Assembly: GCA_006384855.1 (NCBI GenBank)
Contig: VCJN01002913.1
Span: 1 to 64,000, forward strand
Reading direction: 5' to 3'
Origin: Tetraselmis striata
Lineage: Eukaryota > Chlorophyta > Chlorodendrophyceae > Chlorodendrales > Chlorodendraceae
DNA length: 64,000 bases
Positions 8,220-25,200 of the stretch are shown in pieces. Below the pieces are notes generated by a model that saw only the letters and a list, made by a program, of their open reading frames with translations, did no database searches and was not told the DNA's origin. The translations under genes and the position numbers were made by a program. Each line of letters opens with the position of its first letter. The first letter of the stretch is position 1.

Positions 8220-9683
8220 TAATCCGAAAACGAGCGGGGCCACTTTCTGCCTTTGCGCCAGCTTGACAGCTTGCGCGACGACATCGCCTCTTCGGAGGGG
8301 TGCAAGGTGTAACTACTCGCGAGTGTACGGTATTGACCGACACACCCACTCCCTACACCTCCCAGCTAGAATGGCGGGTGGTAAGAATAACCCAGGCGGC
8401 TACTCGAACGACAAACACACAGAGAAATCCTCCAACAAGACGCGGTAGCCGATGGAGCAAACGACAGCGGAGGCTACGCTTACGATTATGCAAGCGTTGT
8501 AACTGCAATTCGACAACCTATCCAACCGGCGCTAGAAATACAATAGGAGATAAACCAACAGCGTGCCAATACCGCGACCAACGACGACGAGGACGAGGGC
8601 GGTGGTAACGACCCGGCGGTGGACGACGCCCGGACAGTAGCTGCGACGACGGCGATGTCTACGGCAAATTCATCGACTCCCTTGATTGGGTAGACGACCT
8701 ACCCTACGCCTACCACGACGTCCTCCCACCTCTGGGGGTGCAATGACGCCCCAACCTCTTAAAGCCTGCTTGGCGCGACTGGGCGGACCTCTACTTCACG
8801 GAGGCGAACAAGACGGAATCTTGGGACGAGTACCGAGCGATAATTTTGGTACTGTGGCCTTTTCCACACGGGCGCGGAGTCGGCGGCAACAACGGCTATG
8901 GCATCCACGAGGGCGCCCAACGCCACCATCCGCACGAAGAGGGAAGCCCTCGACTTACTTGAAACCGCGTTTCGCACGTTGGCGGCAGTGAGCGACGAGC
9001 ACGAGGCCCGGGTCACCTACCTACGCCGCTTCAACGCCAAGAAGGCACACACCGGCGAAGATCAAATCGAGGGGCGCCTCATCATTTACTCCCGCGCCTT
9101 CGACCGCGCTGAGCATGAGCGCTCCGCCAACGTCGTCGACGGCCTCCTTGCCTTTGTCGAAGCTAAGCGCCGCGAGGTAGGTCGGCCTTGCCGCTGCAGC
9201 CAAGGCACCGGGCGCGGCAAAAGTTAAAGAAAAACGGAGCGGGAGGAGGATTCTGGCACCGCCGCCTCGCGGAAGATCAAGGGCAAGACGGCGCACGAGA
9301 AGCGGGAGCGCCGTGAGGCGGAGACCAAGAACAAGAATGACAAGGGCGATAAGGGCCACGGCAACGGTAACAAATGACGTGTGGCGCGCCGTGCCGACGG
9401 TTGAAGCCCCGGCTCCGACTATATGCGACACCGCACGTCGGAGATGGCGGCGATGGCGAGACATCGACGCGAGCGCGCAAGTGCATACTTAAGCTGGATC
9501 CGGGAGGGCATACTAGTACCTTGCCGCAATGGCCGGCCGCCCTCAAGATTCAACCAAGACGTCTCCTTTCAGGACGCCTAGCCCAACTCAAATTCCTCTA
9601 CTCCGAGCTACACCGCTTCACGACTGCCGGCGAGTGGGAGCGGTAGATGTGCGCGTGGTGGGTCTCGCGGGCCTTCTTCGTAC
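8220..9683 (+). mobile_element. DIRS-like fossil, left part (gag-like region to start of RT)
   Basis: This is the left half of a second DIRS-like element. A coding-like stretch at 8898-9227 (ALDLLETAFRTLAAVSDEHE, alpha-helical) sits where a gag-like protein would be. The RT begins near 9560-9680 (motifs LHRFTTAGEWER and WVSRAFFV). The copy is interrupted at 9683 by the 12.6-kb DNA transposon and resumes at 22256. A 38-bp block at 8240-8277 matches 25383-25420 at 33 of 38 positions and may be a remnant of the element's repeated ends. It is broken in several places and clearly older than the insertion. Confidence 0.65.
9680..9683. repeat. Left copy of 4-bp target site duplication (GTAC)
   Basis: GTAC directly precedes the first base of the inverted repeat at 9684. 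The same four bases follow the other end at 22256-22259. GTAC is its own complement. Confidence 0.75.
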
Positions 9684-9710
9684 AACAGTAATTTAACCTA
9701 TTTTGCGCCG
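9684..9710 (+). repeat. Left terminal inverted repeat
   Basis: Twenty-seven bases match the complement of 22229-22255 with three mismatches; similarity fades further inward. Confidence 0.8.
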
Positions 9711-10099
9711 TGGAATTCATTTTGCACCGTAGGGTTTGTCTATACCCTAGTTCCCGGGTTTACTATCAGTACTTAAGACTCACTGGTGATGTAGCTTGGG
9801 TTTGTAGACCTTGGGTGCAATGCAGCATTCAACATCATGAAGGCCAGCCGCGACGCATATCCAATGTTGGTTTTGGAGCATTTTGTCCAAAATGGGACAA
9901 GATGAGGCAATGAAATCAATATTTATTATGATTATTACATCCAGCGGCTAGCTAGCCACAAGACGTTGCTGATAGTTTATTCTTTGAGCATCCCCAACTC
10001 AAGCAAGTCCTGCTTCGTGGCTGCATTAAACTTGACGACTCCGCCGGGTTTGCGTTGCGCTGGGGTGGTTGACATGGCGTGGACGCAGTTGTTTCGTGG
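9711..10099. promoter_or_regulatory. Left subterminal region with TTTTGTCC...GGGACAA motif
   Basis: This is non-coding. At about 9881-9902 lies TTTTGTCCAAAATGGGACAA, an imperfect palindrome. Related TTTGTCCC sites occur near the right end (21.95-22.12 kb) and in the last intron of the transposase gene. Recurring subterminal motifs are a usual place for transposase binding; that role is inferred. Confidence 0.5.
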
Positions 10100-13000
10100 C
10101 TAGCTGATTTGCCACCCAGTTTGCGCATATGTCTTCACGACTTGGACGCTTTTACCGTACCACTTCTTTCTGACCATGGTGCCGTCCTCGTTGAACACCT
10201 CTCGACTTCCCGACGCGTCGTGGATGGCCTTCGCGTACGATAGGGGGACGGCTTCAACAAGCTTCCAAGGAAGCGTCAGGCACTTCTCCCAGCTTGTGTC
10301 AACTGGCTTCTTCCCTCCTTTTGTCTGCGCGTATAACCATAGGGGCATAAGGGGTTTGCCCTTTGCATCGGCATGGAAGGGCTCGTATACGGCCACGGTC
10401 AACGTGTCTTCGGTAGTCTCGCGCGACTTCACAAGCCCGATGACGAATCTCGACTCCCAATCACCAAGAGTTTCAGGACACTTGTCTTCCTCATGCACCT
10501 AACGATGACCAAGACCCCGAGCTATGTTAGTCCCGAGCGAGACGCCACGCCATTTTTGTCCCAGCTGGGACAAAATAACAAGCAAGGTAGAAGAACCAAA
10601 TTGTTTTGTCCCGTAAAGGACAAAAATGACAAACAATGGGACTCACATCGGAGACGTCGATGACAACGAGGTTCGAGCCCTTTGCATCGCTGGGCGATGT
10701 GTTGTCATGAAGCCTCTCCTTGGCGCCGGCGTGAACTCCCCGGAAGGCGCTGTCATCTTGAAGCATTTGAGCACGAACCTCGGCTTCCACGCGAGCGGCT
10801 TCGGCATTGTTGAGGTCTGCGTTAATAGCCATCGTGTGACGTGCCTCAGCATGCGCGGTCTGCCCGTGCTCGCGCAAGAAGTCGTCAACTTCCTCTTTCC
10901 GTTGCGGCCAGAACCCGGAGAAAGCTGCCGAAGGAGCAGTTTGCATCTCATCCAAGTCGTCGAGCAGATTCTTCCAGCTCTCGCGCTCGACTGGGGAGAA
11001 GTGCCACTGGACCGCCAGGTCCGTGATGTCCGACCTGACCTTCTTGAAATCATCCAAGTACCTCTGGACCTTCACCGCGTCGGGCTTCTTTTTGTCGCAG
11101 AGAGCGTACAAAAGGGGCCGGCCCGCACGAATCTCGGGCGTCCCAGTTGGCGCGCTCTTCAAGATCTGCACGGGCTCCGAAAGCGGTGTGTTGGACCACA
11201 AGGCGGTGCGCAACGAGCCGCCAGACGCGGCGGCGTCGTCACGGGTGAACTCGAATTTGTGCGGCTTACTGATGTCATGAATGTGGTCTTGGAAATGGGG
11301 CCTTAACCACTCAGAGAAGTCGAGGGAGAATGAGAGCTCAGCAATCTCCGGAGTGGGCGAGAATGCCTTCGCCACCAAGTCAAGAAAGGCCTCGATTGTG
11401 TAGGCGGAGCTGCGAGATAGCGCAAGACTGATGCGGCTGAAGATCTGGTCAACCCGTTCGTGAGTGTGCCCGACAGGCAAGAAGACCAAATGAATGACGT
11501 CGCAGATGCCGATAGACACAAGCCAATTGCAGAGGGCCGCCACGTTCCTATTCTTGTTCTCCCTGACGGTGTTGTCCATCTGGATTCTGATGTACGGAAT
11601 CTTTCTACCACGGTGTTGAATTTCCTGCATCGAAGACAAGCTTTCATCAGTCCATGGCTACCGGACAACCACGGCGAACCTATCGGGAGGCTAACGAGCT
11701 CACCTTCATGATCGTGATCCATATCAGAGTGCACGTCGTGGACGAATCGTGGGGGATGGTGTTGGTGTAGTAGTAGATGTCGTCCGGGCGGTATCCGTCG
11801 TACTTCACACAGGTGAGGTGGTACTTGAGGAGCATGTCGGGCTTCACAGTCTTGGGGATGCGAACCCAGTGAGGCAGCAGGGTCTTCGCGGAGTCCATGC
11901 TATCAATTTCGAAGAAGAAGAAGTTGCCATGGCCAAGGCGCGACTGGAAGACGGCGTTGTTCAGATCCCTTCGTTCCTGGCGCACTCTCTCGAGGTGTAC
12001 CTTCTGCTCAGCTCTGACCTGACGCCTCACCAGCTGCTGATGTTGACGGTGCACTTGACGTTCCTCTGGCGTCATGTCCTTTGTGCAAATCTCGCGAGCT
12101 TGGTCTCTGAGTGCTTTGCCCGCCGCGCATATGGGACAGTGGCTGAATCGCTTCACCTTCGGCGTGGTGACATCCGGGAAGTCTTCCTTCCAAGTCCGGC
12201 GGAAAGTGTCGAACGATGCGAGCTTCACTTCGCTCTCGGTAGCCAAATCTACAAAGGGGCAGGGGCGTGATATGTCGGTATACAAATAAGGTCTCATAAT
12301 GCGAGACAGAAAACTTCGGTCTGAAGTGGGTCAAAATAATTATATCGGTAGTGGGTGAATAATTCTGTAATCAGCATGGCGAAACAATCTGTCATCAGTG
12401 TGACGACACGGTATGTCAGTAGTGGGACAAAACCGTCTCTCAGCAGTGGGACAAGACGTTCTCTCTGCAGTGGGACGATATCGGCTAATTATGTGGGACA
12501 AATACTTTTGCGGTCGGTGGGACGAAACGGTATGCCATGAGCGGTGCGAAACGTTCTGTCATCAGTGGGACGAAATCGGTCCGGCGTCGGTGGGACTAAA
12601 CGTTTTGTCGATAGCGGGACGAAACGTTCTGTCATCAGTGGGACAAAACGGTTTGTCATCAGCGGGACAAAACGGTTTGTCATCAGTGGGACAAAACGGT
12701 TTGTCATCAGTGGGACGAAACGGTTCGTCAACAGCGGGACAAAACGGTCTGTCAGCAGCGGGACGCAACGGTTTGTCATCAGTGGGACGAAACGGTTTGT
12801 CATCAGTGGGACGAAACGGTTTGTCATCAGTGGGACGAAACGGTTTGTCATCAGTGGGACGAAACGGTTTGTCATCAGCGGGACGAAACGGTATGTCATC
12901 AGCGGGACGAAACGGTATGTCATCAGTGGGACAAAATGGGCCTCACCACGGAGAATGACGTTGTCGTCCTCGGCCCACGACTTGTAGTAGTAGTAGACGC

Positions 13001-13772
13001 AAATCTTGGTCATCCAGGGAGGTAGGTGCTTCTTGAAGGTCTCGCTGTTTCCGTCATGAAAAGGCATGATCTCGACGTGACCGAGGTCATCCGAGAAGAA
13101 GTGCTCGAGAAACATGCGCACATGCTCCCTCGGTCCGGTCTGTCCGCTCTCGTATTGCTTGCGCTGCCTGATGTACGTGGGTTCGTTATCCACCACCGAC
13201 CGCTGGATCACGAGACGTCTGTGTTTCGAGACCTGATGCAAGACCTCCCACGCACGCCCACACGTGTAGATGGGGCCGCGATGATCGAAAGATCGCAAGT
13301 AGCCACCGTGATCGAACATGTAATCGAACTTGTCGGATGCCGACTCGTAGCCACCCCTGAGAACCTGAGCGAGCCGGTCAAAGGAGCGGTTCTGATTGCC
13401 AGAGTATACGGTCAACGCACGGTCCAACACGGCATCAACGAGGGCCCCTCCGCACTGTGTGTATAGCTTGTGCACGCACTTGCGCGAACAGCATGGCGAC
13501 TGCTCGCTAGCCTCCTTGGCGAGCATGAGGCGGATACAATCGCGAGAGGTGCGCTTGCGGATCAGAGACGAGACCTTGCCATTACCGCTTTCGGCGACCT
13601 CATCGCAGCCCTTGCCCCACGTGTACTTCCTTTTCTCAGGCTCCTTACGATCACTCGCACGCGCGTCGCAATCACACTAGTACCCGCTGCGGCACGAACA
13701 CAGCGGTAATGTAACTGTAGTGTCCGACGCGCCGGATCCTGGAGAAGAGGCCATGCTTTCGACCGCCGCCAT
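10100..13772 (-). CDS. Transposase-like protein, DUF7869-type (RNase H-fold), at least four exons
   Basis: Candidate transposase of the 12.6-kb element. Exons, read right to left, are about 13772/13676-12947, 12248-11704, 11624-10647 and 10498-10100. Phases match at every junction from 12947 onward. Order of features: an N-terminal basic region, a Cys/Trp segment (CGRAWEVLHQVSKHRRLVI), a Cys pair (HCPICAAGK), an acidic/hydrophobic strand EIDSMDSAKTLLP, then IQMDNTVRENKNRNV and FLPVGHTHERVDQIFSRIS. A 133-aa C-terminal exon follows. The Asp and Glu/Asp positions in the last three motifs have the spacing I know from DUF7869 proteins and could be a DDE-like triad. The 12249-12946 intron contains a satellite array. 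The start is uncertain: MAAVES at 13772 is in frame, but a TAG at 13677-13679 must be skipped by a small intron or is a real stop. Confidence 0.7.
10554..10575. repeat. 22-bp perfect palindrome (TTTTGTCCCAG / CTGGGACAAAA)
   Basis: The two 11-bp halves are exact complements. The palindrome lies in the last intron of the transposase-like gene (10499-10646), which also holds TTTTGTCCC and GGACAAAAATGACAAAC at about 10607-10635. The core GGGACAAAA resembles GGGACGAAAC of the 24-bp satellite and the right-end TTTGTCCC sites. Confidence 0.8.
12345..12937 (+). repeat. 24-bp satellite array A, about 24 units
   Basis: Tandem units with core CATCAGTGGGACGAAACGGT, period 24. The left third is degenerate and the right two thirds are nearly uniform. 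The array lies wholly inside an intron (12249-12946) of the minus-strand transposase-like gene. Because 24 is divisible by three, most frames stay open (FVPLMTNR, TKRFVISG and so on); these are not proteins. Confidence 0.95.
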
Positions 13773-14312
13773 GCAGCGCGGGGCGAGTGGGTGGGGGGGG
13801 GGGGGTGAAGGACTGTGATCTGTGGTGAGGAAGAGTGACGGCCGATGACCGTTCTCGGACGGGCCGTTGACCGGGGTGCATAATATCCAGGTACGGGTCA
13901 AAATAATTGATGACTCAAATACCGTGTTATTTCGTGCTTCTTTCGTATGTCGGAAATAGTTCTATACTAGTAAGTACACCCGAATCCAATCCAAGGAATA
14001 TATCATCCCATGAAGGAATATTATTGCCACGCCACTGTACTCTCGTACCGTTATGACTCTCGAGTAGGGAATATTTTATCTTCCAATAATAGTAATATAT
14101 AGTCGCAGTAGTTAGCCCTGCATATTCGTCGCGGTGCAAAATACATGAACCTGATGACGACGACGAGGTACACTGTAGTGTGCGCACGCGCGCCGTTGGT
14201 CCAGCAGGGGTCAGAGCGGCGGCAGACGGAAACCACGTCATTTCCACCTCTCCCTCACCCCTTCCCACCAAGAAACCCGCTAATCTACCGCGTCAACCTA
14301 CCTACCGCCAGA
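13773..14312. promoter_or_regulatory. Divergent intergenic region between the two transposon genes
   Basis: About 540 bp separate the likely starts of the minus-strand transposase-like gene and the plus-strand gene. It contains a short poly-G run (13793-13805) and an AT-richer stretch (13905-14110). A shared bidirectional promoter is the simplest reading; no defined promoter element was identified. Confidence 0.45.
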
Positions 14313-17300
14313 ATGGCGCCGAAGAAGAACGAGCCTGCCAAGGACAAGGAAGACAAGGACGACGCCACCCCAGGTGAGTTGCGCGCGCGTACAGTAGCTG
14401 CCTGCCTGCTCGACGCGTGATACGGCCAGATCTAGCGAGTTCGGTTAGGGTTCACTGTAGAAGCGGTGTAATCTAGGACCACTCGAGGTGTAGGCAGACG
14501 AGTGGCAACGTACAGTAGCCGCCTGCCTGCTCGACGCGTGATGCGGCCAGATCTAGCGAGTTCGGTTAGGGTTCCTTGTAGAAGCGGTGTAATCTAGGAC
14601 CGCTCGAGGTGTAGGCAGACGAGTGGGAATATAAACACAAACGAGACGAGCGGCATCAGGGTCCTGCATGGTAGTATTACGTCCCGTCGAGGCAGCTGTT
14701 GCAAGCAGTAAGGATGCTAATTGGTGGTGGGAGGGGGTGGGGGTGAAGAGCGGCCAGGGGGAACCTCTGCCTGTACTCCGCCGTAAGGAGTGGTTTAATA
14801 TTAGTGTGAAGCGCAGTACTTACAGACATTACATTATTAAACCGCAGTACATAATGTATTGAAAATAGTTTTGTCATCAGTGGGACAAAACGGTTTGTCA
14901 TCAGTGGGACGCAACGGTTTGTCATCAGTGGGACGAAACGGTTTGTCATCAGTGGGACAAAACGGTTTGTCATCAGTGGGACGAAACGGTTTGTCATCAG
15001 TGGGACGAAACGGTTTGTCATCAGTGGGACGAAACGGTTTGTCATCAGTGGGACGAAACGTTCTGTCATCAGTGGGACGAAACGGTTTGTCATCAGTGGG
15101 ACGAAACGATATGTCATCAGTGGGACGAAACGGTTTGTCATCAGTGGGACAAAACGGTTTGTCATCAGTGGGACGAAACGGTTTGTCATCAGTGGGACAA
15201 AACGGTTTGTAATCAGCGGGACGAAACGGTTTGTCATCAGTGGGACGAAACGTTCTGTCATCAGTGGGACGAAACGGTTTGTCATCAGTGGGACGAAACG
15301 GTCTGTCATCAGTGGGACGAAACGTTCTGTCATCTGTGGGACGAAACGTTATGTCATCAGAGGGACGAAACGGTCTGTCATCAGTGGGACGAAACGGTCT
15401 GTCATCAGTGGGACGAAACGGTCTGTCATCAGTGGGACGAAACGGTCTGTCATCAGCGGGACGAAACGGTCTGTCATCAGTGGGACGAAACGGTTTGTCA
15501 TCAGTGGGACAAAACGATATGTCATCAGTGGGACGAAACGGTTTGTCATCAGTGGGACAAAACGGTTTGTCATCAGTGGGACGAAACGGTTTGTCATCAG
15601 TGGGACAAAACGGTTTGTAATCAGCGGGACGAAACGGTTTGTCATCAGTGGGACGAAACGTTCTGTCATCAGTGGGACGAAACGGTTTGTCATCAGTGGG
15701 ACGAAACGGTCTGTCATCAGTGGGACGAAACGTTCTGTCATCTGTGGGACGAAACGTTCTGTCATCAGCGGGACGAAACGGTCTGTCATCAGTGGGACGA
15801 AACGGTCTGTCATCAGTGGGACGAAACGGTCTGACAGGATATGATATTTTTAGGTCGAAGGTCCAAGCGGACATCAAAACCTACCGAGAAAGCAAAACAA
15901 TTCGATGCGCTCGGAGCGCTAGTCGGGAGAAAACACAAGGCGTCATCTTCTGTGCCCGAGCAGCCGGCGGCGAAGAAGAGCCGTGCAGCCTCAGCTTCTG
16001 CGGCTAGAGCCGGCGCTGAGGCATCAGGTAACCCCTGGAAACCGAGCCTTTTAGGAGGTAGGGTGCCGGCTTACGGCACGCACTCGCAAGGAGAAAGATC
16101 GGCCGCCTTGCTTTTGAGGGCCCGAATCAAGAGCGGACAAGTCCTCTCAGATGCTCAAATGCAGACAGCGCGAAGGCTAATCGATTACGGAAAACTCATG
16201 CAAGCTTACTATCAATCAGGTCTTGCCTCTCCAATCATATGATTTTTGTGAGTGCACTGTGTCATATTGACATTGGTTGAAATCATGTGTGTTGACAGGT
16301 TCGAATTAAAGGACGCGCACATGAGCCAGTAGCGACTAAAGCTTCAAAGGAATCCAAGGGAAAAGAAAAAGTTTCAGAAACGATTGTGACTCCAGGTAAT
16401 TGTGACTGAAAGTATCAATCCCTGCCTTTGTGAGTGCACTGTGTCATATTGACATTGTTTGAAATCATGTGTATTGACAGGTTCGAAAGGACGCGCACAT
16501 GATGAGCCAGTAGCGACTCAAGCTTCAAAGGAATCCAAGGGAAAAGAAAAGGTTTCAGAGACGATTGTGACTCCAGGTAATTGTGACCTAAAGTATCAAT
16601 CCCTGCCTTTTCACTCCCTTCGATTCCTTTCTCGTCAACGAGTTATCTGACGTTCCAACAGGTCGTAAATTGGCGCAGGCAACCGCGTCGGAAGCAGCTG
16701 GTAAATCGGGATCCCCAGGTAAGAAAAATTACGCTTGGCTTTGACGGTGTATGGCGATACCGTGCAGTAGTTAATCGTGACGCCCACTGCAGGTGTGTTG
16801 AGTACTCTCTACTCATTCTTTACAGGTTCCCCGAATCAAGGCTCTTCTTTGTCTAAAGGCCCATCTCAAGTACCGGAAACAGAGCCTGAGCCTGAAATAG
16901 AGCACACTGAACCGGAGCCCGAGCCCGAGCCGGAGCCGGAGCCCACTCGGCTTGACCCGGAGCCAGAGGCCGAGCTCGAGACTCCAGCGCCGACTACCGG
17001 GCAAGCGTCCGGGTCTGGAGCCTCTGGTTCTCGAGCCCCTATTGCCGAGGCTCCGAGAATGGTTCCTGAATTCCTCAGTATGTGCACGGATGAAGAGGTC
17101 TTCGGCACAGAGGAAGAACAGAGGCAACGGGCGGCAGAGAAGCGTAAGCAAGCTCTCGACATCACCGGCACTCCTGGACCCGAGAGGAAGACAAAGCTGA
17201 TGACGGTCGCTTCTTACGACGACTTCTTTGACGAGAGGGACGGGTCCCAAGAAAATGACTCCTACAGCGACTTTACCTCAAGGAGCTGGACTATCCACTG

Positions 17301-20300
17301 GTTCAAGAACGCAAGTGCTGAGGTAGAGATCTATTTGTACATCGAATTGCACAAGGCGAGCTTGCTGACTGGCAAGGACTTTTTCGATGATCCGGAGGGG
17401 CCACTTCTCGCGTGTATCGGAAAGATCAAGGACGTCGAGCTGGACTCGGCCGGAAACTACGAGGTGAGTAAAGCTTACATGATGTCTGAATTCGTGTCAA
17501 TGTCGTGTTTCAATAAGTATTAATATTCTTATGCTTGTTACCGCAGATCTCCCTTGAACCTTATCGCTTGACAGTGCACAAGGAGTTCAGGATCGATGTC
17601 AGCTTTGAGAGGTTGCTACTCCACGCGATGCAGCCGCCACTCTCCTTCCAGCCGCGGTTCCAGTCTTACTACGCATGGACTTTGGTCGAGCGCAATGTGC
17701 TGGCTCAGGCGCTGACAGGTTTCGCGTCTGGTCAGATTGACATCAATGACTTGGCCAACATTGACAAGAATTTTAAGAACGCGCTTCCATACGTCAACAC
17801 GTTGGCCGTCCCGCCGGCCTTGAATGGCTTCCACAACACCGGTGCCGTCGACTGGATCTCTTACGGCCACCTCAGAGTCGAGATTGCTGATCCAGAGGTG
17901 AAGACATCTCACGGTGGCGACATCAACACCCTATACGCCGACAGAGTCAACCTCGTCGTCGACAAGGATACGGGGCTGCCTCACATTTTCAGCTTCATAT
18001 CCGATAAGTTCGTCGCTCCGCCGCCGGAATTTGAATTCCGTTCCCCAAAGCTGCAAGACTGCAATATGGTGGCGCAAAGCTACAAGGTAAAAGCCTATCG
18101 CGACCTGTTGTACCTATCCGGTAATCAATACACAATGCAACTTACTGACATCCATTTCTTGCATTTGTTATTCAGAGGAATCCTTCCCTATCCGCCGAGA
18201 ATTTTTCGGTGTCCTTTCCAGTAGTCCCTAAATTCGGTTCTTTCCGCGAAGAGTACGAGCCCCTCGCTCTGACCATGGCCAACTTCAAGGAGCTAGTCGC
18301 AGCACACGAAGGCGGGGAGAACCCGAGGTTGGCGGATTCCAGTTCCTACAAGCCAGAGATCGACGTCATCATCGATTTTCTTAGGGCATGCAATGCGCGT
18401 CAAACCAACATCGACGGCAGCCACAGACGGGAGGCAAAGCGCATGGTGAAAGAAAACTACCCGGAAATCTACAAAGCCAACAAAGGCATCCACCTCACGT
18501 CGGCTAAGATGTACATCGGCCTCTCGCCGGAAGTCTGCCGCTACATGTCTATGAAGCTCAACGAGGCGGGTCACACCGTCGTGGGAGACACGTCGATGCA
18601 CAAACTCCTGGTGAGTGACCCATTCTCCCAAATTATTAATAAGCTGACCGTGGCAGCAAATAGGCGTAAAGTGTGACAAAAGTCGTTCTTCGTTAGCGTG
18701 TTAAACATATGTCACAGTGGGACGAAACGGTCTGTCATCAGCGGGACGAAACGGTTTGTCATCAGTGGGACGAAACGGTTTGTCATCAGTGGGACGAAAC
18801 GTTCTGTCATCAATGGGACGAAACGGTTTGTCATCAGTGGGACGAAACGGTTTGTCATCAGTGGGACGAAACGGTTTGTCATCAGTGGGACGAAACGGTT
18901 TGTCATCAGTGGGACGAAACGGTCTGTCATCAGTGGGACGAAACGGTTTGTCATCAGCGGGACGAAACGGTCTGTCATCAGCGGGACGAAACGGTCTGTC
19001 ATCAGTGGGACGAAACGGTTTGCTTGTCATCAGCGGGACGAAACGGTCTGTCATCAGTGGGACGAATCGGTTTGTCATCGAGGTACATTAGTTCGGAATT
19101 TTGAAATCAGTGCAATTGTTTCTGCAGAACCTTCGCAGATGTTTCGAGAGCTGGTATGCAGAACAGGATGCAAATCGCCCCGGCTTTAGGGCACTCCCGC
19201 AAATCAGGGTAGTGAAGGAGTTCAAGAAGTCTGAAGTTCTTCAAGTTGAACTTGAGAAGATCGGCATCAAAGATGAGAAGAGCAGCGAGTTCTCAAATTT
19301 GATTGACCTCTGTTCGCGCCCACAACGGTGAGCTGCGTGCATGATGAAAATTTATCGTGTTGTTAATGCTGCTAGATTCTGACAAATGATTTGCGCAGTG
19401 TTTTTGAGCCCCTTGAGCAGATTTCTGAAGCCTACCGGCATGTGGAGCTCGGGGTTCGAGGATGGGACGAAGCCAGAACCAAACTCGGAGACCTGTTAGT
19501 GTACTACGAGCAATAACTCGATAGAGTCAAGCGCCTCAATTCCGGCAGGCAACTCACCCAGAAGGAAGTGAGCAAGGTTTACGAAGCAATTCGGAAGCCT
19601 ATCAATGCAATCCTCGATAATAAGAAGTACGGCTTCGGCAAAGACAGAGCTCACTTCCGAGTCGCACTCATGGAGGTAAGTTGTGACCGACCCCAGTGTC
19701 TTAATCACATTGAATACTAACATGTCTTTCTCCGTACTGAAGTTTGTTTTTCGACCCAGGATGTTGGCTTTGGACCCCATGCGCCCTGGCTAGACGAGCC
19801 GTCTCTTGCCAAGCAGAGCGACAGCGCGGATCTCCCTGTGGGCCAGATGTACCTGGTGGTTGGACTGCTCATCCAAGGCGAGCACAGTGTGACCCCGAGC
19901 CTCTACGAGCTGGTGCATGACATTAAGCATGCCGGCGACGATGGCCCCATGGCTGTCACGCACACCAACGCGGAGTGGCTCGCGATGATTGAGACCTGGA
20001 GGTTTCGCGATCTCTTGCGTCGAGCAAGCATCAAGCTCATGAATGTCATTGACACGGCCAAGGGCAGGGAGACAATCCAACTGCTGACGCCGGACGAACC
20101 GGCCAGGAATTGGGGGAAATTTCTCTCGGACCACATCATCGATTGGGATGTGCAAGACAAAGTGTCGGATGAGCAAGCGGCCGCTCGCCTTGACGCTATC
20201 ACCAAGTTCCAAGCCAAGGTTGATGACCTCGGCCCAACAGGCTTCCCCAGAAAGTTCCAGGATTTGTTCAAAGGTGCTCATCGCTCCGGTCCTTTGTTGG

Positions 20301-21909
20301 TCTTGCTGACCCCTCCTGCCAGATGGGGGGACATGAAATCCGCCGATTGTCTCACACCACTACCGGTTCGAGAGCATATCGCGGCCACCAACACCACCAT
20401 CAGGAGTGAGGCGTATCGCATCAAGAATCAGATGCCGGAATTGGTCATCTCCTTCTTCACAGAGTTTGCTCTTCTCGCATGTGCGCCGGAGCTTATCGCG
20501 GTTTCCGCTCCGAATGTTTCTAATGAGCTGTGGATATCGATGAAGGTAACTAAGATCTTGTGCGACCACAAATGCTCTTCTGAATTTTCGTTGTGAGCCA
20601 TTAACCCGAATCTGTTTTCTAATACGCACAGGCCGAGGAACTTCCGGTGATGCCCAAGAGAGAAGGGGTCGAAAGGGATGAGAAGGTGTGGTTGAACACG
20701 GAGCTTTGCAAGACTTGCATTGTGGAGGGGAACTTTAAGGCTCCCGCGACAAAACAATTCGTCGCGGACGCCATGTCGGCAGTTCGTGCCAGAAAGGCAA
20801 CAGTGTTCATTGCCGACGCGCTTTTCGGAGCTGGTTCGCACACATGGGACTCGAAGGATGATGCGTGGGGTACGGACGACTTCAACGACGTGTTTGCTTT
20901 CGCCAGGCAAGACAACCCCCACAACCCCGGTGCGTAGATGACTGTGCTTTCATTTATCCCATTCCCGATTTACCCCCGCGCAGGCAGTTGAATATCCAGA
21001 CTGGATCTTCTGACGTCCACACTGCTCTCGATGGGTGCCATTTCTTCATTCACCTCTCGGACCAGCAACTTGGATCCGCAATCACAGCCGTTCAAAAACA
21101 AGCTGAGGACCTCATCTATCACGTCCTGACTTGGGCCAAGGATTGCGGGATGAAGATGGGCAGCTCTCTGCGTCACGACGCTGAGTACTACCTCTACGTT
21201 AGGAAGCCTCCGCCAAGCATCATAGCTGACAACATCCGTTTCGATGATCCCCGAAGGTGAGATTTGATCCGTGGAAAATAGCGGCTGATTTATTTACTCG
21301 CTAAGCCGGTTGTGCCTTTCCAGGTTCTCTACATCCATCATATTGGGCCACTTCAAAGACAGTTCGAAATTGAAGGACGAGAACAGACAGACGGTGAACA
21401 AGTACCAAAAGCCTATCGCTCTCTTCGCCAAGCACCTTAAGATGGCGGCAACAGACGGGACAACAATCGTCGACGTCACGGCCGGAACCGGGACAACCGC
21501 GGTGCGTGAGGGGTGCAACCCGGGTGAGTGTCTTAATGGGATCAAAAAAAAAATTAACGCCTTGTGCGATTTGCCACGCCTTTTCCAGGTCGCTGCGGCC
21601 TTTTCCGTGTGGTGGGACCATATGGATCATACCTACTCGTTCACACACAGGAACTTGAAGATTATCCTCATTGACAACCAGAAGACGCAAATCGTTGGGA
21701 TGAAGTCCAGGATGACCTCATGGTTCAAAGAGAAGCCATGGGACGAGACTCAACAACTGCGTCCAACTGACTTCGAGAAGTGGCCGGGTCTACCCCATCC
21801 AATGACCGAGGGAGAGGAGTTCGCAGAGCGTCTTGAGGCAGCGAAGAAGAGGCGAGAGGCGGCAGAGCGCCGAGGGGATTATGTGATCGAAGATGATGAT
21901 GATACGTAG
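14313..21909 (+). CDS. Large intron-rich protein with C-terminal beta-class DNA methyltransferase-like domain
   Basis: Second gene of the 12.6-kb element. Supported exons: 14313-14373, 15854-16219, 16299-16395 (decayed), 16481-16576, 16662-16718, 16826-17463, 17547-18086, 18176-18610, 19128-19327, 19399-19675, 19760-20545, 20632-about 20929, about 20988-21256, 21324-21501 and 21590-21909. N-terminal exons are short, Lys/Ala-rich and all phase 1; a Glu-Pro repeat lies at about 16890-16960. The middle (17.2-20.5 kb) is globular and unrecognised. The last exons follow the class-beta order: a motif-IV-like ADALFGAG then WDSKDD (20812-20860), WAKD...EYYLYVRK (21.13-21.21 kb), a motif-X-like KYQKPIALFAKHL, motif I DVTAGTGTTA, and RNLKIILIDNQKTQIV. 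The catalytic DPPY is replaced by DALF. One in-frame stop lies at 19514-19516, and the junction near 20930-20988 is unresolved. The copy may be recently inactivated. Confidence 0.6.
14389..14625 (+). repeat. Two tandem copies of a ~121-bp repeat in intron 1
   Basis: ACAGTAGC-GCCTGCCTGCTCGACG through GTGTAGGCAGACGAGTGG occurs twice with an offset of 121 bp and few differences, directly after exon 1 of the methyltransferase-like gene. Confidence 0.9.
14867..15836 (+). repeat. 24-bp satellite array B, about 40 units, with a 408-bp higher-order repeat
   Basis: Same unit and orientation as arrays A and C. It lies in intron 1 (14374-15853) of the methyltransferase-like gene. Marker variants recur exactly 408 bp apart (17 x 24): the GATATGTCATC variant at 15108 and 15516, TTTGTAATCAGCGGG at about 15206 and 15614, and CATCTGTGGG at 15331 and 15739. 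A 17-unit block was therefore duplicated in tandem. Confidence 0.95.
16220..16580 (+). repeat. Tandem duplication of an intron-plus-exon module
   Basis: Two copies of intron end (TGTGTCATATTGACATTG... to the acceptor), exon and donor (CTCCAG|GTAATTGTGAC) lie about 182 bp apart. The second copy's exon (16481-16576, 96 nt) keeps the frame (GSKGRAHDEPVATQ...). The first (16299-16395, 97 nt) has an extra TTAA after TCGAA and a 3-nt loss later, which gives an early in-frame TAA. Confidence 0.85.
18714..19078 (+). repeat. 24-bp satellite array C, about 15 units
   Basis: Same repeat and orientation as arrays A and B. It fills the intron between exons ending 18610 and starting 19128 of the methyltransferase-like gene. 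Six-frame openness makes it look coding, but flanking splice sites and repetition argue that it is intronic. Confidence 0.95.
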
Positions 21910-22228
21910 TACAATTCCGCAAAATTAGCCCCTCATATGTTTTGTCCCGGCTTTGACAGAGGTTCAGCCCCGGACGGCACAAACTACTTGTAGCCATCAC
22001 GGCCCCCGCCCTTATTTTTGTCCCAGTTTGGACAGAGTTTCAGCCCCCGACGGCGCAAACTACTTGTAACCATCCCGTTTCCTTCACTCTTTTGATTTGT
22101 CCCTGCTTGGACGGAATTGGTTTCCCCGACTTGGCACAAAATGAACCAACCGGCATTCATGTTAGCTTTCAATCCCACTGCTGCCCCCAAACCCTAATTT
22201 AGACCTAACCACAATGCACCGCGTGCCT
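21910..22228. promoter_or_regulatory. Right subterminal region with three TTTGTCCC-type repeats
   Basis: Three related blocks, TTTTGTCCCGGCTTTGACAG (about 21949), TTTTGTCCCAGTTTGGACAG (about 22016) and TTTGTCCCTGCTTGGACGG (about 22097), are spaced roughly 70-80 bp apart. The first two are each followed by a shared CAGCCC-CGACGGC-CAAACTACTTGTA block. They echo the left-end and intronic GGGACAAA motifs. Confidence 0.75.
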
Positions 22229-22255
22229 CGGGGCAAAATAGGTTGCATTACTGTT
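22229..22255 (-). repeat. Right terminal inverted repeat
   Basis: Complement of 9684-9710 with three mismatches; followed by GTAC (22256-22259). Confidence 0.8.
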
Positions 22256-25200
22256 GTACCAAAGCCCGGCGACAACTAGTGGCGGTTCGTCATCGATCTA
22301 CGCGTGCTCAACACCTATTGCGCTCGGAAGCGCCTCCGGATGGAGACGCTCATGGATGTGCGCCATCTAACCAAGAAAGGGGACTACATGTTCTCCTTCA
22401 ACCTCCATGACGGCTTCTACGCCGTGGGCATCGCTCCCTCCGACCGAGACTACTTCACGGTGAATTGTACTGGCTCCGCGGGCTACCGATGGGGTGGTCG
22501 CTGAGCTCTTACTACTTCGTTAGCTTCACCATGACGTTCGTGCAGCACCTACGCTCCCCGGCTACGCTTGCTACGCGGCTGGCAATAATACCGTGCCCCG
22601 CTCGCGCCGCTGGCTCCGGAGAGGGCGATGGCGGGGCGCACGCATCTTACCGTCCGACTTCATTGGACCCGGCGGCGCTGGAGCTCCGCTTGCGCGTCGC
22701 AGAATGGCTAGACGCAGGTTGGGGCGGCTGCAACGCAACCCCACGAAGGGGTTGCTGTGGGAGGCCGTTCAATACGTGAAGCACCTGCGTGTGGACATCG
22801 ACACGGCTATGGGGGGTTTATGCACATGAGGCCAAGCTTGCCAAGTTGTCGCAGCATGCCAACCAAATGCTGCAGCGGGCCGCCCGCAAGGCGCGATAGG
22901 TGCTCGTCCGAGCGTTGTTGACCGTGGCGGGCCGAGCACAATACACATGTACCTGGCAATTCCGGCGTCCCGCTTCTTCTTGCGCGAGCTCCACGACGTT
23001 GTGGGCTCCAGGTGGGGCGGCCACGTCCGGATGATGCCGCAGCTTCGTCATGACATACAGCGGCGAACATATGTCCGCTCATGCCAACGACAAGCCCATT
23101 CACCGCCCCGTCGAGACCGCCTACATCCACTGCGACATCTCGGACTACGGGCGGGGGGCGGTGCTCAACTGCCACCTCGAGGCGCGATGCTTTTGGGGGC
23201 CGGAGGATGAGCGGCGGCAGCACATCATCGGCAAGGAGCTCAAGGCCGTCCTGCTGACGATGGAATAATTCTTGCCGCAACTCGCCGGTCGCCGCGTGCT
23301 GTTGCACGAGGACAACCAGGCGTTTAGCAACGTCCTCGCCGGGCACACCTCCCGGTTCCCGGAGATGATGGCGGAGCTGCGCCGGCTGTGGTACATGCTG
23401 GATAGCAACGGCATTCACGTCAGGGCGCGCTACATCCGGTCGGCCGCCAACGTGTGGGCGGACTGCATGAGCGGGCGCATGGACAACGACGACTAGCAGT
23501 TGGACCCCGTGCTCTTCGCGGAGCTCGAGACCGAGTGGGGGCTCCATTCCGGCGACCGCTTCGCATCGGCCCTAAACGTAGTGCTACCCCGCTGCAACGC
23601 GTCGTGGCTGGCCCCGGGCTGCGAGGTGGTGGACCCCCTTCACCTGTCCGATGTGAGCTATCTACGGCAACCTGCCATGGTCGCTCCTGCCATACAAGGT
23701 GCAAATAAGGCTGCGGCAAAGCGGAGCCGCCCCCGCCGTCGTGGCGCCCTGGTGGGAGGGCAAGGTGTGACACAAGGCACTCACCGTGATGGCCCTCGCC
23801 GAGCGGGTGGTGCCGCCACTTCTCGAGCTTTTCATGCCAGGGCGCAAGGTAGGACGCGGTATGCTCGGGGCGCCGCGCTGGGCCGTAAGCATCTTCCGGG
23901 TGCCATTCCGGCAAGGCTGTACTTGCGCCATGGCGCCGTGAATGAGCGCTACCATGAAGCCTTTTCCCGTACGAGGCCTGCCCGTGGTGGTTTCCGCGCG
24001 CGGGGCGCGCGCCTAGAAGTAGAACTACTGTCTAGACATTGAGCCCGGTGGCACCAATCCATGGGCGGACACTTTGCGCCCGTACATGCGTACATTGTTG
24101 GGTACCGAGCGATGGGCTTGGCGAAACGGCGATAGATTTGTTCGGCTTGGGCCAAGGACATCGGCGAGACGTACGGCAACGCGATCAAGCCTTTCTTCCG
24201 GTTTTGCAAGGAGCACGGTGTACCCACCATGGATGCCACTGTGTCTACCATCGCGCAGTACATCGCATGGCAGGGATTGCGAGGCACGGTGAGTCCTGAC
24301 CCAGAGCATGCAACCCTACCTGTCGGCCATCATCGGTTTCTACCATGATCACGGCGTGGAGCTTGTGGCCCCGGGCGACCTCATCGCCAAGATGAGGAAG
24401 GGCCTGGCGGCGTCGCAGGTGGAGAAGGAGCCACCCGGGGTCCGCACCTATGCGCCGGCCAACCGCCTAATGGTCAAAGCACTTCAGTTGGCGGAGCAAT
24501 GGCGCGAGGAGTTGGGCAGCTCGTGGGAGCAACATCAACATCTTCGTATCGTATTGTTCCGCGCGGTGATCGCGGTGCCCGACATGTACGCGTTCTACGC
24601 GCGCGGCAAGGCGGGTGTGCAGTGCGCTACGGGCAATTTCGTCGTTAAACCGGACGGCTTTCTTTTGCTGTACCATTCTACACGCAAGGACAAGCGTGCG
24701 TGGCGTGGAGCGCGACAATAAGTTATTTTGCCGCATTCCGGCACAAGCGCAGCCCCGGATCGCGCCCTTGCTGAAATATCTTGATGCTGCACGCACGCGC
24801 CGGATACAGTGGTGGGCGAGGGCCGAGGGCTGCCGACGGCTCGATGGACGATCACCCACAGCGAGGCGACGGCTAAGTAGACGCCAGACAATGTCGCCGC
24901 TTGGCTGCAGCGCGTGGCACGACATTTGCTGGGGGAGCAACCGCTTGACGGCTTCCTGTGAGCATCGCACTCGCTGCACAAAGGGTGCCGCTACTGCATC
25001 ATACGCCGTCGGCGTAGTGCTGCAGAAGATCAAGCACTTCTGCGGCTGGGCTGTGTTGTCAAGCGTCGTGCTGATCGATGGACTGCTACATCGACGCAAC
25101 AGCCGTGCCATGCGCTGCTTCTTGGCAGCTCTTCGGGTGGGGGCAATACTCCACGGCGGTCTGCTCGCCCATGGGCGGCAGCCTGATGGCAAATGCGGCC

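Follow-up and report, generated by a model that had tools for sequence, protein, structure and literature searches.

A segment of 12,572 bp (about 12.6 kb) in the genome of the green alga Tetraselmis striata is very probably one member of a large and recently active family of two-gene cut-and-paste DNA transposons that would work in a Sola-like manner. The window analyzed was a stretch of 64,000 nucleotides at the start of contig VCJN01002913.1. Exact ends, inverted repeats, varied 4-bp target-site duplications, paralogous empty sites, and a high copy number were established for the family from a single assembly, in which no transposition was seen. Both genes, one transposase-like and one methyltransferase-like, are under purifying selection across copies. 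The features of the window copy are listed in the table.

The earlier note on this DNA had described defined ends, with inverted repeats differing at three positions in 27 and a GTAC duplication, and each of these descriptions was borne out. The first 27 nucleotides inside the two ends differ at 3 positions, the terminal inverted repeats extend over approximately 30 bp inside the element with termini AACAG..CTGTT, and GTAC is found directly outside both ends. Longer arms of 37 nucleotides (9677-9713 and 22226-22262) are 86% complementary, with 7 nucleotides of each lying outside the element. Both end positions are exact, and other copies terminate at the same base rather than elsewhere: in 62 distinct flanks beside the end motifs, similarity ended at the first base of AACAG, with no outside column exceeding 30 of 62. 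A second copy had been proposed as a check, and there were hundreds of end sites; a 26-nucleotide end motif (≤3 mismatches) was found at 668 sites in the assembly (342 + 326), compared with 0 + 0 for the reversed control.

The 4-bp duplication was perfect in 15 of 21 paired copies, matched at three of four positions in 2 more, and was not recognizable in the remaining 4. The 15 perfect duplications represented 14 different 4-mers, and GTAC was present at only one other insertion besides that of the window copy. GTAC was thus ruled out as a fixed target or terminus and belongs to the window insertion only. A preference for palindromic targets was unsupported (34 of 120 complementary pairs versus 28.8 in shuffles; P = 0.15).

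At paralogous empty sites GTAC, or a close variant of it, occurs once and the insert is absent. At the clearest of these (L035) both 500-bp flanks were contiguous, 96.6% and 95.6% identical to those of the window copy, and overlapped by exactly the 4 nucleotides GTAC, in agreement with the earlier claim that the same interrupted fossil lies on both sides. Sites L036 to L045 likewise lacked the insert. The flank is repeat sequence (40 sites scored out of 197 candidates). It looks by eye like a broken reverse transcriptase, but two pieces of it had no match in Pfam, so its repeat nature is all that is established. No point was found in favor of a chance or assembly artefact, in which a repeat would have coincidental inverted ends; 668 sites against 0 in the control, exact ends in 62 distinct flanks, and the empty sites refute it, and it deserves practically no credence.

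Features of the transposon in the window (positions are those of the window; a point marks features without strand)
Feature	Position	Strand	Remark
Whole element	9684..22255	.	Inverted ends, 4-bp duplication, common end bases across copies
Target-site duplication GTAC, left copy	9680..9683	.	Single copy in paralogous empty site L035
Target-site duplication GTAC, right copy	22256..22259	.	Directly outside right end
Left terminal inverted repeat	9684..9713	+	251 left-end sites in assembly (38-nt motif; control, 0)
Right terminal inverted repeat	22226..22255	-	255 right-end sites in assembly (40-nt motif; control, 0)
Transposase-like exon 4	9977..10498	-	Premature TAG at 10100-10102 in window copy
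TTTTGTCCC motifs near left end	10554..10612 (10554 +, 10575 -, 10604 +)		Inside intron 3 of transposase-like gene
Transposase-like exon 3	10647..11624	-	IQMDN..REN and PVGHTHERVD motifs; core of DUF7869
Transposase-like exon 2	11704..12248	-	CxxC zinc-finger-like motif; first conserved Asp, FFEIDSMD
24-bp minisatellite array 1	12388..12936	.	Intron 1 of transposase-like gene
Transposase-like exon 1	12947..13772	-	Premature TAG at codon 32 in window copy
Methyltransferase-like exon 1	14313..14373	+	
24-bp minisatellite array 2, 40 units	14870..15830	.	Intron 1 of methyltransferase-like gene
Methyltransferase-like exon 2	15854..16219	+	Basic, NLS-like by eye
Methyltransferase-like exon 3	16481..16576	+	
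Methyltransferase-like exon 4	16662..16718	+	
Methyltransferase-like exon 5	16826..17463	+	Glu-Pro repeat, then unassigned region
Methyltransferase-like exon 6	17547..18086	+	
Methyltransferase-like exon 7	18176..18610	+	
24-bp minisatellite array 3	18710..19079	.	Intron 7 of methyltransferase-like gene
Methyltransferase-like exon 8	19128..19327	+	
Methyltransferase-like exon 9	19399..19675	+	Premature TAA at codon 837 in window copy
Methyltransferase-like exon 10	19760..20545	+	Includes 20273-20371
Methyltransferase-like exon 11	20632..20933	+	Motif IV position DALFG instead of DPPYG
Methyltransferase-like exon 12	20984..21256	+	Part of N6_N4_Mtase match
Methyltransferase-like exon 13	21324..21501	+	AdoMet motif I VDVTAGTGTT
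Methyltransferase-like exon 14	21589..21909	+	Carries stop
Subterminal TTTTGTCCC motifs	21940..22024 (21940, 22016)	+	Related to minisatellite unit

Ten full-length copies were 94.9 to 99.5% identical, and two 7.3-kb deletion copies did not keep the whole methyltransferase-like gene. As the earlier note had proposed, the element carries two divergent, intron-rich genes, both spliced and in opposite orientation. Both were open in one of the ten full-length copies. In the window copy premature stops interrupt both genes, and the copy is itself dead.

The transposase-like gene encodes a protein of 956 amino acids that, in the search with hidden Markov models proposed earlier, was a clear member of the DUF7869 family (Pfam PF25273; E value, 1.1e-43; 149.5 bits versus a curated cutoff of 26). 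The frame was open with GT-AG introns in three of the ten full-length copies, and pN/pS was 0.24 (bootstrap, 0.16 to 0.34). Eight other full-length copies retain the region of codon 32 and have no stop at this codon; C140 has lost the region. A 30-nucleotide first intron was rejected, as the window copy has a stop in it and the frame continues uninterrupted across it in other copies. In an eight-row alignment reaching homologues 26 to 46% identical, the residues of the MDN, EN, and HTHExxD motifs were invariant. Three acidic positions were kept in homologues, D (IDxM), D (QMDN), and E/D (HTHExxD), the first of which was comparable in few rows. We infer that the DUF7869 protein is the transposase.

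The structure model of this protein had a pLDDT of 45, and Foldseek returned no match with an E value up to 0.001, so an RNase H fold has no support from the model. The weak Foldseek matches (E > 0.2), which were not relied on, included several Argonaute chains; the PIWI domain of these proteins is RNase-H-like. A sequence search of the PDB gave one match, NinB (E value, 0.73). The sole relative in bacterial and archaeal contigs, 26% identical, was on a 5.2-kb contig that is binned as Bacteroidetes and appears eukaryotic by eye; a prokaryotic origin was rejected. PF25273 is annotated as a family of unknown function, and DUF7869 was not named in any paper found by the literature search. Here a member lies within a mobile element whose ends and target duplications have been mapped, and this context makes a transposase role directly testable.

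T. striata is known for integrations of viruses and Polinton-like elements, and the host genus, the large size, and the methylase gene would all suit an integrated virus or Polinton-like element instead of a transposon. This is very improbable given the 4-bp duplications and short ends. No capsid, polymerase (PolB), ATPase, or integrase domain was detected among the proteins scanned with Pfam, which were a subset of the open reading frames, and neither a single sequence nor an alignment found relatives of the transposase-like protein in IMG/VR (records near this genome possibly excluded).

The earlier statement that the element could not be placed in a known superfamily was too strong, as 4-bp duplications and conserved acidic positions (D, D, and E or D) fit the description of Sola, whose founding paper reportedly dates from 2009. 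Kolobok duplications are TTAA, and both piggyBac and Kolobok were rejected because the 4-mers are varied, with TTAA absent from the 15 perfect duplications. Ginger, with its Gypsy-like integrase, was rejected as well; neither the transposase-like protein nor the scanned part of the second, which began within exon 5, gave an integrase-domain match. The 4-bp duplication also ruled out hAT and KDZ/Zisupton, for which 8 bp is usual (hAT) or stated (Zisupton) (PMC12730594), and MULE, with 7 to 12 bp (PMC10741241). Members of the CACTA/EnSpm-Transib group (CMCT) have C(2)C and H(3-4)H between the second D and the last acid and, in most cases, termini CA..TG (PMC12730594); membership was rejected, with termini AACAG..CTGTT and, by eye, no C(2)C/H(3-4)H between QMDN and HTHExxD.

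Sola elements are described as having 4-bp target duplications, inverted ends of 11 to 1124 bp, variable termini, a DDD transposase, and sizes mostly of 2 to 9 kb, with some >15 kb (PMC10741241). The element shares the duplications, the inverted ends, the variable termini, and the size range, and its three conserved acidic positions may be compatible with DDD. By this description it appears compatible with the Sola superfamily, the passages on which mention no counterpart of its methyltransferase-like protein (about 1,500 amino acids). No account of the element was found among the titles and abstract openings listed for the literature on Tetraselmis or on transposon-borne adenine methylases, and the transposon family is likely undescribed.

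The methyltransferase-like gene has 14 exons and encodes a protein of about 1,510 to 1,570 amino acids with an N6/N4 DNA-methylase domain at its end. In the profile search, which had been proposed for both proteins, the domain matched N6_N4_Mtase (PF01555) just above the curated cutoff (28.7 versus 26.7 bits; profile positions 47 to 199 of 221). Fourteen exons were counted because an intron at 20273-20371, kept as coding in gene model P0086 and skipped in P0066, would lack GT-AG, and the stretch was open in all ten copies; the profile match and the pN/pS values were computed without its 33 codons. The frame was open in three of the ten full-length copies, two of them with GT-AG introns. Over the whole gene pN/pS was 0.52 (bootstrap, 0.43 to 0.64). 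The structure model had a pLDDT of 48 with no Foldseek match at an E value up to 0.001, and a PDB sequence search with the methylase domain gave no match.

The second gene might be a chance-captured passenger without a role in transposition. Gene capture by transposons occurs, and the transposase-like gene was the less variable of the two (pS, 0.031 versus 0.062), but the methyltransferase-like gene is in the same place in all ten full-length copies, the interval of its pN/pS lies below 1, and its frame is open in three copies, which makes this origin unlikely.

Motif IV of N6/N4 DNA methylases has the consensus (D/N/S)PP(Y/W/F), although it varies among known methylases. The element departs from this form with DALF in eight of the ten copies (C238 has a deletion there, and the position could not be read in C226), and P0114, a relative of different source, reads DANY. 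Furthermore, pN/pS in the methylase part was 0.65 (0.40 to 1.04) over 20632-21501 and 1.23 (0.71 to 2.79) over the last exon (21589-21909), compared with 0.43 and 0.43 in the preceding stretches. These results suggest that the methylase may be inactive, with the fold retained in a subunit for DNA binding or scaffolding that aids transposase assembly, and we consider this a serious possibility at somewhat less than even chances. METTL14 beside METTL3 is a precedent for such a non-catalytic partner. Against inactivity, motif IV keeps the Asp and the aromatic residue, and the AdoMet-binding motif I (GxG) was intact as VDVTAGTGTT in nine of ten copies (VDVTTGTGTT in C24) and present in P0114 (DVTCGTGTT).

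The three intronic arrays of 24-bp units recur in the same introns of the ten full-length copies, with 51 to 70 units. The array unit contains the motif TTT(T/C)GTCCC, of which the element has 74 occurrences and the remaining 51 kb of the window none. A shorter end-like motif, TTTTGC-CC, did not distinguish the element, with 4 sites in it and 4 in the remaining 51 kb.

In the proposed cut-and-paste mechanism, the DUF7869 protein would bind to motifs in and close to the element ends, cleave at the AACAG termini by means of a D/D/(E or D) active site, and insert the element into its target with a 4-bp stagger. More speculatively, the second protein might dock on element DNA, plausibly also on the minisatellite arrays, and methylate adenine (N6) or cytosine (N4) there, which might either mark copies against host silencing or regulate transposase binding. 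A bolder version, which we regard as rather unlikely, is a transposon that sets an epigenetic mark on itself. A divergent N6-adenine methyltransferase, with motif IV as D-A-x-F/Y, would methylate element DNA; the arrays, whose motif recurs in the subterminal regions, would serve as platforms for docking or marking, and copies would be kept active or recognized as self. With hundreds of end sites and ten copies 95 to 99.5% identical, whether the partner writes, reads, or blocks marks can be addressed with native long reads.

The pairing of transposase-like and DNA-marking-like proteins may reveal how mobile elements alter the chemical marking of their host genomes, and the element, with its DNA-methylase-like partner and unusual motif, is a new entry among mobile elements that carry DNA-modifying enzymes. 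DIRS retrotransposons with a Dam-like adenine methylase and DNMT-bearing retrotransposons (PMC5890265) are likewise mobile DNA with a DNA methyltransferase; however, they are retroelements, whereas the T. striata element is of the cut-and-paste type with an N6_N4_Mtase-type domain. Fungal DNA transposons of KDZ, hAT, IS3EU, and other superfamilies carry TET/JBP enzymes, which are thought to counter silencing and act on existing marks rather than writing them (PMC12730594). Mariner elements linked to algal viruses also combine a transposase with methyltransferase genes in a DNA transposon, but the transposase is of the Mariner type, the methylases are of other types, and there is an added endonuclease gene (PMC3627910).

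The element at 9684-22255 is real and well delimited, and the account of it in the earlier note is mostly correct. The 12.6-kb sequence with near-identical inverted ends is present, AACAGTAATTTAACCTATTTTGCGCC and AACAGTAATGCAACCTATTTTGCCCC differing at 3 positions, and both the GTAC duplication and the single interrupted repeat described as surrounding the element were confirmed in the sequence. The left flank consists of repetitive sequence. A paralogous empty site (L035) aligned to both flanks (96.6% and 95.6%), its two halves overlapping by exactly GTAC with no sequence between them. Ten more distant paralogues (L036 to L045) were continuous, without an insert; the two flank alignments overlapped by exactly 4 nt in seven of them, whereas in L037, L043, and L044 at least one of the two stopped short of the junction. 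These empty sites are paralogous, not allelic. The old repeat around the element (flanks 9184-9683 and 22256-22755 and loci L035 to L045; 40 of 197 candidates were scored) resembles reverse-transcriptase sequence by eye, and a Pfam search of two pieces of it gave no match.

The assembly (224 Mb, 2,903 contigs) was searched for further copies. When up to 3 mismatches were allowed, the 26-nt end motif occurred at 668 sites (342 forward, 326 reverse), and the reversed pattern, used as a control, at none. Longer end motifs located 251 left and 255 right ends, also with empty controls. If most end sites are paired, the assembly would hold an estimated ∼330 elements, which at ∼12 kb each would add up to ∼4 Mb (1.8% of the total sequence). 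Pairing was examined among 100 listed sites of the 668, which included at least 20 neighbouring facing pairs, spaced by 11.0 to 12.8 kb in 14 cases, 7.3 kb in 2, and 15.7 to 28 kb in 4. Two right ends ∼14.6 kb apart on one contig (L012, C42:103227; L013, C42:117797) are flanked by an identical 12-bp sequence, as would be expected if a local duplication had taken in the element end.

When the 20 facing pairs and the window copy were considered together (n = 21), perfect 4-bp target duplications were found in 15 (GGTA, TCAC, GTTA, CGAC, GCAG, GTTC, AACG, GTAC, ATGT, GCCA, ACAC, ACGC, AGCT, TCAA, and a second GTAC). Two further pairs (C455 and C488) had a one-base mismatch, and four (C58, C200, C226, and C436) had no recognisable duplication, a 2-nt match at C226 being counted as chance. 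Of the four long pairs, C264, C345, and C483 have perfect duplications and are therefore probably elements into which other DNA has been inserted. There was no strong target consensus across 62 distinct flanks, and a test for a palindromic target preference was negative (p 0.15).

Features within the element (window coordinates)
Feature	Position	Strand	Remarks
Gene 1 (transposase-like), exons	13772-12947, 12248-11704, 11624-10647, 10498-9977	minus	956 aa
Gene 2 (methyltransferase-like)	14313 to 21909	plus	14 exons, borders chosen by hand
24-bp-unit arrays			three, MINISATELLITES, in introns of both genes

The three introns of gene 1 are each GT-AG, and its protein matched the Pfam family DUF7869 (E 1.1e-43). 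Comparisons covered the 10 full-length copies (the window copy and nine others), with two 7.3-kb copies excluded. The acidic motifs FFFEIDSMD and PVG.T.E.VD were found in all 10 and a third, IQMDN..REN, in 8 (C58 has RES; C163 had no match); a CxxC motif (HCPIC) lies upstream of the first Asp. The MDN, EN, and HTHExxD residues are invariant among relatives 26 to 46% identical, and most are kept on a remote, eukaryotic-looking contig. The reading frame is open throughout in three copies (C58, C154, and C238), and pN/pS across the 10 is 0.24 (bootstrap, 0.16 to 0.34). The window copy is nonfunctional as it stands, being interrupted by two premature stop codons, one at codon 32 and the other at 10100-10102. 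Among the 63 protein matches, 59 came from T. striata gene models (jgi Tetstr1, TSEL), including the best ten, which were 81 to 97% identical; the names of these proteins point to T. striata, a green alga, as the host. The other four (P0030, P0047, P0062, and P0063) came from different sources and lie on contigs of 1.8 to 2.8 kb. Two T. striata matches with DUF7869, P0036 and P0045, are only 55 to 57% identical, so the species probably holds further, older families. A structure model of the protein (pLDDT 45) had no significant Foldseek match.

The 24-bp arrays occur in the same order in all 10 full-length copies with varying unit numbers (16 to 24, 14 to 40, and 5 to 32; 51 to 70 in total per copy), and the two 7.3-kb copies retain two and one of them. 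The unit includes TTT(T/C)GTCCC, which is also present near both element ends and occurs 74 times in the element versus none in the remaining 51 kb of the window. The inverted-repeat core TTTTGC-CC resembles this motif but is nonspecific, with four sites in the element and four in the remaining 51 kb. As a guess, the transposase may bind these repeat motifs.

The methylase partner is the testable point about the element. All 13 introns of gene 2 in the window are GT-AG. A further intron at 20273-20371 was rejected, as there are no GT-AG borders there and all 10 copies read through without a stop; public gene models differ, some retaining these bases and others skipping them. The window frame of 1,509 codons has a premature stop at codon 837. 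Three copies (C24, C54, and C154; 1,523 to 1,567 aa) are open throughout, of which two look intact, since in C24 one intron no longer has its splice signals; both genes are open in one copy of the 10. Only the C-terminal part of the protein was recognised (N6_N4_Mtase, 28.7 bits; cut-off, 26.7), with weak matches to CcrM, far under its cut-off, and to phage DNA methyltransferases (PHROG 67). Motif I (VDVTAGTGTT) is intact in nine copies, and motif IV reads DALF rather than DPPY in the eight that are readable. A relative from another source, P0114, has DANY, so this departure probably predates the spread of the transposon family. Relatives from other sources were P0080 (1 of 22) and P0114 (1 of 44, from a search scoring the 7,997 candidates that shared most words), on contigs of 1.8 to 2.8 kb. 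Calculated without the 33 codons of 20273-20371, pN/pS is 0.52 (0.43 to 0.64). Constraint is weak on 20632-21909 (0.65, interval to 1.04; last exon, 1.23), a reason to treat methylase activity as putative. The structure model (pLDDT 48) gave no significant Foldseek match. Synonymous difference across the 10 copies is uneven (0.031 in gene 1, 0.062 in gene 2), as if the element halves had different histories.

The element has fixed ends, duplicates 4 bp on insertion, is present in high copy, and carries two genes under selection. The DUF7869 protein would carry out cut-and-paste transposition, and the second protein might act on the element's own DNA, either by methylating it or as a binding subunit. 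In the tested features the element fits Sola, a group whose membership is defined by protein comparison; Sola elements are described as having DDD, 4-bp duplications, variable ends, and lengths mostly of 2 to 9 kb, some >15 kb (PMC10741241). The preference for AT-rich 4-bp duplications (AWWT) described for dictyostelid Sola2-type elements (PMC3627910) was not seen in this family. Mobile elements bearing DNA-modifying enzymes are already known: accounts include DIRS elements with adenine methylases and DNMT-bearing retrotransposons (PMC5890265), fungal DNA transposons with TET/JBP (PMC12730594), and virus-linked mariners with methyltransferases (PMC3627910). Among the papers listed by literature searches, none was seen to describe this element or a transposon pairing DUF7869 with a methylase, which does not prove that such a description is lacking.

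A second multicopy N6_N4_Mtase set (C761, C2208, C2618, C2762, and others; 19 rows, 36 to 39 bits) has open frames of 115 to 242 aa, mostly 223 to 242, and in C2762 and C2865 it is distant from the end sites of the element among those listed. The two best methylase matches in the assembly, L088 (C1010) and L089 (C2009), lie amid intron-less, bacterial-looking genes, and these contigs are therefore probably bacterial contamination.
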